Positions 19,105 to 22,379 of a DNA stretch of 41,881 nt are shown one piece after another (positions within the stretch are counted from its first letter, which is position 1; every line of letters begins with the position of its first letter). Origin of the DNA: Acidobacteriaceae bacterium (GTDB lineage: Bacteria; Acidobacteriota; Terriglobia; Terriglobales; Acidobacteriaceae); assembly GCA_003138975.1 (NCBI GenBank), contig PLHQ01000105.1, positions 11,113 through 52,993 on the forward strand, given 5' to 3'. The translations under genes were made by a program, and so were the position numbers. Below the pieces are notes generated by a model that had not been told where the DNA came from, did not search any database, and worked only from the letters and a program-made list of their open reading frames with translations.

Positions 19105-20559
19105 TTATGCAACGGTGACCGTGCCGACCGCATCGGGTACGTCAGTTGATTCAAAGTCGTAAGTGACGTCCTTCCAGATATCCAGCGCCTTGCGCAGTTC
19201 CGGCGACCAGCGGGCAGCCTTGTTCAAGATTTCCGGGCCCTCGTTGAGGAAGTCGCGCCCTTCGTTGCGGGCCTGGATCATCACTTCGGTGGCCACGCGA
19301 TTGGCCGTTGCCCCTTGGGCGATCCCGTCGGGATGGCCAATTGTGCCTCCGCCGAATTGCAGCACCACATCTTCGCCAAGAAGGTGCAACAACTGATGCA
19401 TCTGCCCCGCGTGAATGCCGCCGGAAGCGACCGGCATCACTGCCGGCAGCGACGCCCAATCCTGCTCGAAATACAGTCCTTGAGATAGATCGGCATCGAT
19501 CTTGTTCGATCGCAACGTGCTGTAATAGCCGCGAATCGCATTGGGATCGCCCTCCAGCTTGCCAACCACGGTGCCCGCGTGAATGTGGTCCACTCCCGCC
19601 AGCCGCATCCATTTGGCGATCACGCGGAAATTGACGCCGTGCGTTTTCTGCCGCGTGTAGGTTCCATGACCGGCGCGGTGCAGATGCAGAATTACTCCAT
19701 TGCGCCGCGCCCACTTGGCCATCGACTGAATCGCGGTATAGCCGATCGTGAGGTCGATCATCACAATCACTGTCCCGAGATCTTTAGCGAAGTCAGCGCG
19801 TTCGTACATTTCCTCCATAGTTCCGGCAGTTACGTTCAAATAATGTCCCTTAATCTCGCCGGTCGAGGCCGTGGCGTGATTGACCGCTTCCATGCAAAAC
19901 AGAAAGCGATCGCGCCAGCGCATGAAAGGCTGGCTGTTGATGTTCTCGTCATCTTTGGTGAAATCGAGTCCGCCGCGCAGCGCTTCATAAACCACGCGTC
20001 CATAATTGCGGGCAGAAAGACCGAGCTTAGGTTTTACGGTAGCGCCTAGCAACGGACGCCCGAATTTATTCAGGTACTCTCGCTCCATCACGATCCCGTG
20101 AGCTGGACCCTGAAACGTTTTTGCATAGTGCGGAGGAATTCGCATATCTTCCAGGCGCAGAGACTTGAGCGCCTTGAAGCCGAACACGTTGCCGATAATC
20201 GAAGAAGTCAGGTTCGCGATCGAACCTTCTTCGAAGAGATCGATATCGTAGGCGATGTAAGCGATGTACTGGTCAGTGCCGGGCACGGGATCGACTCGGT
20301 AGCACTTCGCTTGATAGTGCTCGTAAGGAGTCAGTCGATCCGTCCAAACTACGGTCCATGTTGCCGTCGAAGACTCGCCGGCCACCGCTGCCGCAGCTTC
20401 AATGGGATCCACGCCCGCTTGCGGCACCAGACGGAAGGCGCACAAAATGTCGGTGGCCTTCGGTTCGTAATCCGCCTCGTAGTAACCCATTTCCGCGTAC
20501 GGCGTGATGCCCGCGGCCCAACGGCTCTTTTTCTTGCCGGAGTTGTTGCTACCAGCCAT
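19105..20559 (-). CDS. cbbL: RuBisCO large subunit, form I red type (IC-like)
   Basis: 484 residues. All key catalytic parts are visible. Lys176 is in [11 protein letters not shown] (base). Lys202, the carbamylation site, with Mg ligands Asp204 and Glu205, is in [28 protein letters not shown] carries the phosphate-binding Arg/His. Loop 6 is in [11 protein letters not shown]. It fixes CO2 (or O2) onto ribulose 1,5-bisphosphate. GGGAG lies 7 bases before the ATG. It is the first gene of cbbL-cbbS-cbbX-prk. The residue after AGH is Gly where I recall Ser (AGHSTYTRQK) in proteobacterial form IC. A long leader and a -24/-12 promoter precede it. Confidence 0.97.
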
Positions 20560-20667
20560 TTCGTCTCCCTATAAAAATCACTAAGTTTCTGCGACCGTTG
20601 CTGCTGGTCCAGATCACGAATGTTTTGAATTCACCGAAGTGGAGGGCGTGCGCTGTTCCAGACGGGA

Positions 20668-20687
20668 GCCGGGCTGGTTGGCCCGGC
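20668..20687 (-). promoter_or_regulatory. Stem-loop in the cbbL leader
   Basis: A perfect 7-bp GC stem (GCCGGGC / GCCCGGC) with a 6-base loop. It lies about 110 bases before the cbbL start and downstream of the predicted transcription start. No U-run follows, so it is not a classical terminator. It could affect RNA stability or translation, or be chance. Confidence 0.4.
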
Positions 20688-20776
20688 CGCACCTTCGCTC
20701 GTACTTCTTTGCGATACTGGCTCTCGAAATCGTTCCGGATGGTTCGCCGGCTGTCGTCGCCTGCGTAAATGATTAA

Positions 20777-20792
20777 GGCAATTCCCGTTCCA
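20777..20792 (-). promoter_or_regulatory. Candidate sigma-54 (-24/-12) promoter of the RuBisCO operon
   Basis: Read on the minus strand: TGGAACGGGAATTGCC. It matches TGGCACG-N4-TTGCW at 10 of 12 informative positions, with exact spacing between GG (-24) and GC (-12). Transcription would start near 20766, giving a leader of about 205 bases. The next gene upstream encodes a sigma-54 activator, and palindromic and repeated boxes lie 115-195 bases further upstream, the normal place for enhancer sites. Confidence 0.65.
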
Positions 20793-20905
20793 ATGTTGTT
20801 TCAATTCTTGTGATGGCAGACGTCGAGTTCTTAAGTACGTGTTGTTTCTATCGGTTGGGGCTTGCACGCGAGGAGGGAACGAGGAAAGTGAGGACTTTGC
20901 TAGCC

Positions 20906-20937
20906 GCTCATATGAGACTTTTCGGTCCCATATGAGC
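20906..20937. promoter_or_regulatory. Repeated CATATGAG boxes, candidate activator (enhancer) sites
   Basis: GCTCATATG at 20906-20914 and CATATGAGC at 20929-20937 form a perfect 9-bp inverted repeat. The first copy is itself inside the 10-bp palindrome CTCATATGAG (20907-20916). CATATGAG also occurs as direct copies starting at 20909 and 20929, exactly 20 bases or two helical turns apart. Such phasing fits a dimeric Fis-type regulator bound on one DNA face. A degenerate copy, CTCATAAG, occurs at 21010-21017. Confidence 0.6.
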
Positions 20938-20958
20938 AATGGTTGATGTCACGTAAGT

Positions 20959-20973
20959 CATTGCTCAGCAATG
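20959..20973. promoter_or_regulatory. Perfect palindrome CATTGCT-C-AGCAATG
   Basis: A 7-bp perfect inverted repeat around one central base, 22 bases from the CATATGAG boxes and about 170 bases upstream of the -24/-12 promoter. Candidate operator for the adjacent sigma-54 activator or another regulator of cbbL. Confidence 0.5.
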
Positions 20974-21026
20974 TATTATTGGTCAATTAATGGATAGTGA
21001 CAATATCATCTCATAAGTGGGTCATA

Positions 21027-22379
21027 TTAGTCTCTATGCTGCACCCTTAACGGACGATGCGTTAACTTGTACTTTGCGAGCAAGCGATGAAACGTTCTCC
21101 GCGGAATTTTCGCCAGTGTGGCAGCCCGGGAGACATTTCCATCTGCCTTCACTAAATAGCTAGCTAAGGCTTCCCGCTCAAACTGCTCAATCGCGCGAGC
21201 TTTGCTCGGCATGAATCCCATCTGCGGTTTGAACGGGACCAGATCTTGAACATGAAGCGGAAGATGCTCGGCCTCTACCGTTGCAGAAGAGGATAAGACA
21301 ACAGCGCGCTCAATAATGTTTTCTAGTTCGCGAAGGTTGCCCGGCCAGGAATAGTTCCTCAACAGAGCAAGTGCTTGCGGTGCGATGCTCTCGACTTTTT
21401 TGTTGACCTTGGCTCGGGCTCGCTGCAAGAAATATTCCGCGAGGAACGGAATGTCTTCAATCCGCTCGCGGAGGGGCGGCAGAGTGATGGAGAACGTGTT
21501 GATGCGGTAGAACAGATCTTCGCGAAACGTGCCTTCGCGAATGGCGGTTTCCAGATTCCGGTTCGTCGCGGCGACAATTCTTACCGAAACCCTTCGCGTC
21601 CGCATGTCACCGACGGCGCGAATCTCGCCCGTTTGCAGCGTGCGCAGAAACTTAGCCTGGATCTCCAGCGACATGTCACCAATTTCATCGAGGAACATGG
21701 TGCCACCGTCGGCCTTTTCGAACAATCCCTTGCTGTCGTTATAAGCGCCCGTAAAAGCGCCGCGGCGGTAGCCAAAGAGTTCGCTCTCCAGCAGAGCGGG
21801 AGACAATGCCGTGCAGTTTAATGTGACCAGCGGATGATTGCTGCGTGTGCTGTTACGATGGATGGCGCGGGCTACAAGCTCTTTCCCGGTTCCGCTTTCG
21901 CCGCGGATCAGGACAGTCGTCGGTGTCGGAGCAACCTTCGAAATTAGTGACGAGATCTCTCTCATCTTCAGGTTATTGCCAATGATGAACTCGCCTTCCG
22001 CCCGGGACTCAAGTTCGCGCAGGGCAAGCTGGTATTGATCTTGGAGAGATTCGGATTGATCCTTTTTGCGCACAAAGGCGGAGATGAAACGGGCGGTCTT
22101 GCCGCCGAGAACCTCCGTCCCGTGGGGCCGCAGGCGGTAGACCTCGCGAGCGATGTCGGGATCGCCCGTGACATCGATGATGAGATCGGCCGCATCGGCT
22201 TTCAGAAATTTTCTGTAGTTGGCAGCAACCGGTAAGCCTAGTTCGTGAGCGAGCACGATGCCAGGCGCGCCTTCATCTTTGTCGGCGACTCCGACAATCT
22301 CGATGCTCGGATCGTTATGGAATAGTTCCACCAAAGCTCTTCCACCACGTCCGGCCCCGATGAGAATGATTCGCGTCAT
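21027..22379 (-). CDS. Sigma-54 activator with N-terminal NAD-type Rossmann sensor domain
   Basis: 450 residues. Residues 1 to about 125 look like a Rossmann NAD(P)-binding fold of the homoserine/dihydrodipicolinate-reductase kind. The glycine motif is GAGRGG (8-13), strand 2 ends in Asp33 (VGVADKD), which favours NAD(H) over NADP(H), and IIDVTGDP lies where a later strand edge would be. The AAA+ domain follows (about 130-365) with GESGTGKE, GAFTGA and TMFLDEIGDM. A Fis-type HTH ends the protein (GNVSRAATLAKIPRRTFHRL). It has no receiver or GAF domain. It lies directly upstream of cbbL on the same strand, with a -24/-12 promoter between. Inferred role: redox-responsive activator of the RuBisCO operon. 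The Shine-Dalgarno box is weak. Confidence 0.92.
   Translation of the reverse strand: MTRIILIGAGRGGRALVELFHNDPSIEIVGVADKDEGAPGIVLAHELGLPVAANYRKFLKADAADLIIDVTGDPDIAREVYRLRPHGTEVLGGKTARFISAFVRKKDQSESLQDQYQLALRELESRAEGEFIIGNNLKMREISSLISKVAPTPTTVLIRGESGTGKELVARAIHRNSTRSNHPLVTLNCTALSPALLESELFGYRRGAFTGAYNDSKGLFEKADGGTMFLDEIGDMSLEIQAKFLRTLQTGEIRAVGDMRTRRVSVRIVAATNRNLETAIREGTFREDLFYRINTFSITLPPLRERIEDIPFLAEYFLQRARAKVNKKVESIAPQALALLRNYSWPGNLRELENIIERAVVLSSSATVEAEHLPLHVQDLVPFKPQMGFMPSKARAIEQFEREALASYLVKADGNVSRAATLAKIPRRTFHRLLAKYKLTHRPLRVQHRD

Follow-up and report, generated by a model that had tools for sequence, protein, structure and literature searches.

In the window analysed here, a 41,881-nucleotide stretch of contig PLHQ01000105.1 from an Acidobacteriaceae bacterium, a RuBisCO operon on the minus strand (cbbL-cbbS-cbbX-prk) lies directly downstream of, and codirectional with, the gene of a one-component sigma-54 activator. 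The activator has 450 residues (21027..22379, minus strand) and by Pfam consists of a Rossmann domain, a AAA+ domain and a Fis-type helix-turn-helix (HTH). Sigma-54 control of the operon by this protein is well supported at the sequence level, because the gene association, the promoter and the operators are kept in all eight cbb-linked loci. The protein is an enhancer-binding protein for sigma-54 in which both the sensor and the target are new, and the proposal as a whole, a dedicated activator that senses nicotinamide adenine dinucleotide, NAD(H), and drives the Calvin-cycle operon, appears probable. The gene order and coordinates had been given correctly in an earlier interpretation made from the DNA letters alone (the sequence-only reading).

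The operon comprises cbbL (19105..20559) and cbbS (18659..19060), encoding the large and small RuBisCO subunits, cbbX for the RuBisCO activase (17654..18643, TIGR02880, above cut-off) and prk for phosphoribulokinase (16644..17657), all on the minus strand; cbbL, cbbS and prk were assigned with Pfam and NCBIfam. Nine activators of the Rossmann type were found in Acidobacteriota, and eight of them precede a RuBisCO operon that is read in the same direction. The sequence-only reading had made its proposal depend on where such homologues lie, and they lie by RuBisCO in all but one case. Among 101 near relatives of the source metagenome-assembled genome (MAG; handle G000, 98.6% complete, 5.45 Mb), which include Ca. 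Sulfotelmatobacter, Acidobacteriaceae and Terriglobia MAGs, the Rossmann domain gave matches at 0.001 in six genomes. Five of these are strong (G000, G010, G015, G030 and G042), while the sixth, in G031 (9e-4), looked oxidoreductase-like by eye and was set aside. Eight genomes among 200 relatives contain cbbL; within the first 101 these are the same five and G013, so that all activator genomes fall among the six with cbbL. G013 gave no activator match, its cbbL being on a 3.5-kb contig of a genome that is 74% complete. Further cbb-linked activators in G156, G492 (locus L058) and G539, the last from another family, bring the total to eight genomes.

One search of relatives returned 11 loci, of which seven are activators and one (L065) a kinase; the remaining three (L066-L068) were judged by eye not to be activators. 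Among the seven, L063 and L064 are two contigs of one and the same gene, which agree at 195 of the 195 bases that they share. Plasmid relatives of the activator were sought and none was found. At 1e-6, six genomes in a 399-genome draw of the class matched, strongly in the own genome only; the other five (5e-7 to 1e-8) were taken as oxidoreductase-like without Pfam, open reading frames being inspected at L069, L070, L072 and L074. In a 396-genome draw the Rossmann domain matched in 15 genomes, as strong activators in G000, G539 and G560 and more weakly in the other twelve. The activator of G560 is the one that is not by RuBisCO, and RuBisCO, which matched in 18 of the 396 genomes, gave no match in G560 (the Rossmann and RuBisCO draws are taken as the same set; G560, G802, G502, G528 and G540 were also searched individually). 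The 20 kb around it contain two isolated operator-like sites, with neither a -24/-12 element scoring at least 14 nor two operators spaced by 20 or 22 bp. At L093:11005-12348, a Rossmann activator gene away from RuBisCO adjoins genes that by eye are glycosyltransferase-like.

The window and loci L038, L058 and L056 have cbbL as the first gene past the activator. In L092 (G539) that place is taken by the gene for fructose-1,6-bisphosphatase, and a transketolase-like gene (by eye) follows prk. A CarboxypepD_reg-type protein comes first in L039 (Pfam) and in L040 and L041 (by eye). Before cbbL, L039 and L040 have the gene of a pyridine-nucleotide-disulphide oxidoreductase, presumably of the ferredoxin-NADP reductase-like subtype. 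In G042, cytochrome-oxidase-like genes (by eye, L042:2286-4049) are located divergently upstream of the activator, another possible redox link.

Between the activator and cbbL is the -24/-12 element TTGGAACGGGAATTGCC (20777..20793, minus strand), with GG-N10-GC intact and 10 of 12 consensus positions. This is the element that the sequence-only reading had described, and by the usual numbering it implies the start at 20766 that was proposed then. Irrespective of the first operon gene, the element is found 219-248 nt past the activator stop codon, and the best -24/-12 scores summed over the eight loci reach 111, versus 90.3 (standard deviation, sd, 2.5) in 300 shuffles. A -24/-12 pattern derived from these loci has a single exact match in the window and two with one mismatch, versus 0.58 expected. 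Genome-wide (5.45 Mb) there are four exact matches and none to the reversed pattern. The other three (C58, C132 and C179) have no operator of at least 9/10 within about 1.5 kb, and for this reason a regulon shared with other sites of the own genome was rejected. The RNA structure of the 207-nt cbbL leader is not unusual (z 0.90). The leader contains a GCCGGGC/GCCCGGC hairpin at 20687-20668 (minus strand), with a similar one in L058 and looser ones in L038 and L056, as judged by eye.

Upstream of the promoter, three candidate operators resembling GRGAC-N6-GTCYC are present in each of the eight cbb-linked regions. In the window, operator 1 (21019..21034, minus strand, GAGAC-N6-GACCC, 9/10) overlaps the activator stop codon, operator 2 (20997..21012, minus strand, 8 of 10 positions) is 22 bp from operator 1, and operator 3 (20914..20929, minus strand, GGGAC-N6-GTCTC, 10/10) is centred 130 bp upstream of the -24 GG. 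The spacing between sites 1 and 2 is 22 bp in seven loci and 20 bp in L092; these two sites begin from 21 nt before to 31 nt after the activator stop codon, and the centre of site 3 is 126-132 bp upstream of the -24 GG in the eight loci. The consensus of the 24 sites is T-G-[AG]-GACAT-N-T-[AT]-TGTC-[TA]-C-A. In each locus the observed combined score was attained by none of 1000 dinucleotide shuffles, and the two best operator scores, pooled over the eight loci, amount to 146 versus 114.5 (sd 2.5) in 300 shuffles. As controls, ten 500-bp stretches preceding cbbL or prk were scored, six at activator-less loci and four before cbbL behind intervening genes; their best -24/-12 scores were 10-12, except for 14 in one (L040), and their best operators 7-8. 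In six loci the 150 bp preceding the activator gene were examined for self-regulation, and nothing there exceeded the control level (operators 6-7 of 10, -24/-12 elements 9-12 of 16). The sequence-only reading had pointed to palindromic boxes upstream of the promoter. These are present, at 20906-20937 and 20959-20973, but are not conserved as operators: CATTGCTGAGCAATG, CTCATATGAG and CTCATATGGG occur in the window only and in none of the regions of the seven other loci. The conserved operator 3 sits within the 20906-20937 repeat.

Several points weigh against this picture of the regulation or call for caution. An activator is visible at eight of 15 form-I RuBisCO loci, and seven are without one: the second copy of G030 (L057) and the loci of G146, G802, G502, G540, G528 and G013, of which those in G528 and G013 sit on contigs of about 3.5 kb. 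Form I here means at least 71% identity to the CbbL of the window, which excludes the 12 other genomes of the RuBisCO draw, with 39-43%-identical proteins only. No -24/-12 element was found within 500 bp before cbbL in L057, where by eye the operon adjoins a transaldolase-like gene and the activator is not adjacent. The operator pattern, with three window matches at one mismatch versus 4.76 expected, is not rare on its own, so its support comes from conservation and spacing, and the motif was defined from the same regions in which it was scored. About four lineages stand behind the eight loci, because the window, L038 and L058 form one group of close relatives and L039 and L041 another. In L056 each site reaches just 8/10 and in L040 site 3 just 7, which singly is the control level, so the case at these two loci rests on spacing. 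No match to PF04552, the sigma-54 DNA-binding domain encoded by rpoN, was found in the own MAG; the same search was positive in four of 14 control genomes, E. coli included. An assembly gap is likely, because the MAG has 26 PF00158 matches of at least 149 bits and G146, of the same family, has a canonical rpoN (L055:17165-18901), about 8 kb from its RuBisCO operon. A sigma-70-like site (10/12) at 21003-20975 belongs to the same side of the balance, as do the Calvin-cycle operons of C. metallidurans, which according to PMC9045368 were under RpoD control and argue against generality.

The sigma-70-like site and the missing rpoN would fit transcription of cbbL mostly from a sigma-70 promoter, with the activator a minor or unrelated neighbour. 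This is very improbable: sigma-70-like matches number three in 2 kb, versus 1.1 (sd 1.2) expected, the one at 21003-20975 overlaps operator 2, and the sigma-54 promoter and operators are kept in eight of eight loci.

The protein itself has the features of a sigma-54 activator, as the sequence-only reading had proposed from its GAFTGA motif and Fis-type HTH. The AAA+ sigma-54 interaction domain with its lid is formed by residues 132-380 (21240..21986, minus strand) and matches Sigma54_activat (PF00158) at 2.2e-69 in Pfam. The GAFTGA motif (residues 207-212, 21761-21744) is intact and invariant across six aligned activators. The HTH (residues 397-437, 21069..21191, minus strand) matches HTH_8 (PF02954) at 2.4e-6, above the cut-off. 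The top NCBIfam match is NifA, below its cut-off (355.8 versus 528.85 bits). In the AlphaFold2 model, the sensor and the AAA+ domain are joined by a long helix (residues 93-124, 22008..22103, minus strand) with a predicted local distance difference test (pLDDT) value of about 75. The full-length model is poor (pLDDT 49.9), and the AAA+ and HTH domains were therefore left out of the fold search.

The input domain (residues 1-100, 22080..22379, minus strand) contains GxGxxG at residues 8-13 and Asp33 after the second beta-strand. Sequence, model and fold comparison all speak for its assignment as a Rossmann domain of the NAD type, another proposal of the sequence-only reading. In Pfam, the first 100 residues or so match DapB_N (4.6e-6, 27.2 bits versus a cut-off of 25.6), with GFO_IDH_MocA and NAD_binding_3 also matching, both under the cut-off. 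The model is a confident Rossmann fold, near NAD dehydrogenases and Rex. When the sensor alignment was used to search the PDB by sequence, designed TIM barrels came first, which were regarded as spurious, and GenD2 next; Asp33 aligns with an Asp of GenD2, the structure of which was solved with NAD.

It is rather unlikely, although it would leave control of the cbb operon by sigma-54 and the activator in place, that the Rossmann domain senses another nucleotide, a Calvin-cycle metabolite or a partner protein, in the manner of the CARF domain of RtcR. The fold alone does not fix the ligand, as non-NAD Rossmann-like proteins (ATP-bound TrkA, formyltransferases) match nearly as well as the best matches, no catalytic domain follows the Rossmann fold in the activator, and protein partners control the CARF domain of RtcR, as PMC9650030 describes. 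The glycine motif also varies, to CxGxxG in the G042 copy and, among distant members of the sensor-domain family, to GGGRAA in L094. Set against this, Asp33 is present in nine of nine activators and GxGxxG in eight of nine, purifying selection on the domain is strong, NAD-dependent enzymes lead the fold matches and a pyridine-nucleotide reductase gene is located within the L039 and L040 operons. That the domain is a mere dimerisation or structural cap, the activator being constitutive or controlled by its expression level, is improbable too. It occupies the sensor position, and some activators, such as PspF, have no sensor (PMC7175178), but its conservation extends beyond the fold to nucleotide-site residues, and the same domain is also found on kinases and GGDEF proteins.

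These other outputs were met in two sets of genomes. In the phylum of L065 (Nitrospinota), six of 77 genomes have the domain, as seven proteins: five histidine kinases and two GGDEF proteins, in one of which (L137) just part of the Rossmann domain is in frame. Pfam scans of three of the twelve weaker matches of the 396-genome draw identified L096 as a histidine kinase and L098 as a GAF-GGDEF protein; the third is a 226-residue protein (L094:7134-7811) in which the Rossmann domain is accompanied by an MCP signalling match just under the cut-off, possibly a soluble redox chemoreceptor. Since the domain is found on activators, kinases and GGDEF proteins, it looks like a reusable input module. Tentatively, and at somewhat less than an even chance, it may be a general NAD(H)-reading module that bacteria use on sigma-54 activators, on histidine kinases and diguanylate cyclases and probably on a chemoreceptor-like protein. 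In Acidobacteriota it would then drive RuBisCO directly and turn carbon fixation into a sigma-54-controlled outlet for excess NADH.

In the mechanism we favour, the activator, dedicated to the Calvin-cycle operon, would bind the three operators, whose centres are some 155, 238 and 260 bp ahead of the start, form a AAA+ ring, loop to sigma-54 polymerase held at 20793-20777 and open the promoter. This would drive cbbL-cbbS-cbbX-prk and, in relatives, also the fbp or pyridine-nucleotide reductase gene before cbbL. The ligand of the sensor would be a pyridine dinucleotide, with NAD(H) the likeliest, and the 93-124 helix would relay the ligand state to the AAA+ domain, so that operon expression would follow the supply of reductant. 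The sequence-only reading had likewise proposed a switch by the NAD+/NADH state, which would make carbon fixation a redox valve. Less certainly, the operon would most likely be on at high NADH, where the Calvin cycle may act as an outlet for electrons, or with lithotrophic reductant at hand. A precedent for the redox logic is the CbbR of X. flavus, since among the references of PMC9833100 is a title that names it an NADPH sensor.

The activator differs from each of the systems that it resembles. Upstream of cbbL lie the activator, a phosphatase and an FGGY kinase, with no LysR-type gene beside cbbL; Pfam found none among 26 window proteins scanned, and a genome-wide search for CbbR was not made. 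RuBisCO operons are usually switched by the LysR-type regulator CbbR, which has a LysR fold and works with sigma-70. Like the activator, CbbR is linked to the RuBisCO operon, and it is tuned to metabolic or redox state, as is proposed for the activator, but here the regulator is a AAA+ sigma-54 activator with a Rossmann sensor. Rex, a winged-helix redox repressor with neither AAA+ domain nor sigma-54, has an NAD(H)-binding Rossmann domain that follows its winged helix, while here the Rossmann domain is amino-terminal and fused to AAA+. In fold and sequence the sensor is closest to the nucleotide-binding domains of DmpF-type acetaldehyde dehydrogenase, GFO/IDH/MocA and DapB, which belong to enzymes, whereas here the nucleotide-binding half alone is fused to signalling outputs. 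RtcR is likewise a one-component sigma-54 activator with a Rossmann-like input, although its CARF sensor is of another family; according to PMC9650030 it controls RNA repair and signals via RtcAB and an RNA-repair-dependent signal. NifA and NorR share the AAA+ and HTH domains, but their targets differ and their sensors are GAF domains (PMC7175178). The table of that review lists response-regulator, PRD, PAS, V4R, ACT and GAF inputs, or none. In the literature searched, mostly open-access, neither a sigma-54-controlled cbb operon nor a dehydrogenase-type Rossmann sensor on a sigma-54 activator was found among the matches listed. The sequence-only reading knew of no described system of this design; this holds for the combination within that literature, but each half has a precedent, in CbbR and in RtcR.

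The histidine-phosphatase-superfamily protein (22511-23158) and the FGGY kinase (23158-24726), both on the minus strand and assigned by Pfam, are encoded upstream of the activator. A phosphatase-family gene directly 5' of the activator is also kept in L039, L040 and L058, and the FGGY kinase upstream of it in L039 and L040; the two are perhaps part of pentose phosphate handling. Elsewhere in the window, Pfam identifies EgtB-like (FGE-sulfatase/DinB) and EgtD-like (histidine methyltransferase) genes at 32361-34685, which we take to be probably for ergothioneine biosynthesis, and a molybdopterin dehydrogenase large subunit with its 2Fe-2S subunit (xanthine/CO-dehydrogenase superfamily) at 1790-4952.

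If the proposal is true, a RuBisCO operon run by sigma-54 would place an ATP-dependent on/off switch on carbon fixation in soil Acidobacteria, hosts in which autotrophy is poorly understood. At least three types of signalling protein carry the input module, namely activators, histidine kinases and GGDEF proteins. Since the operators, the promoter and the ligand-site residues are mapped, the idea is directly testable, and by it the Calvin cycle of these bacteria would be tied directly to the state of the pyridine dinucleotides.

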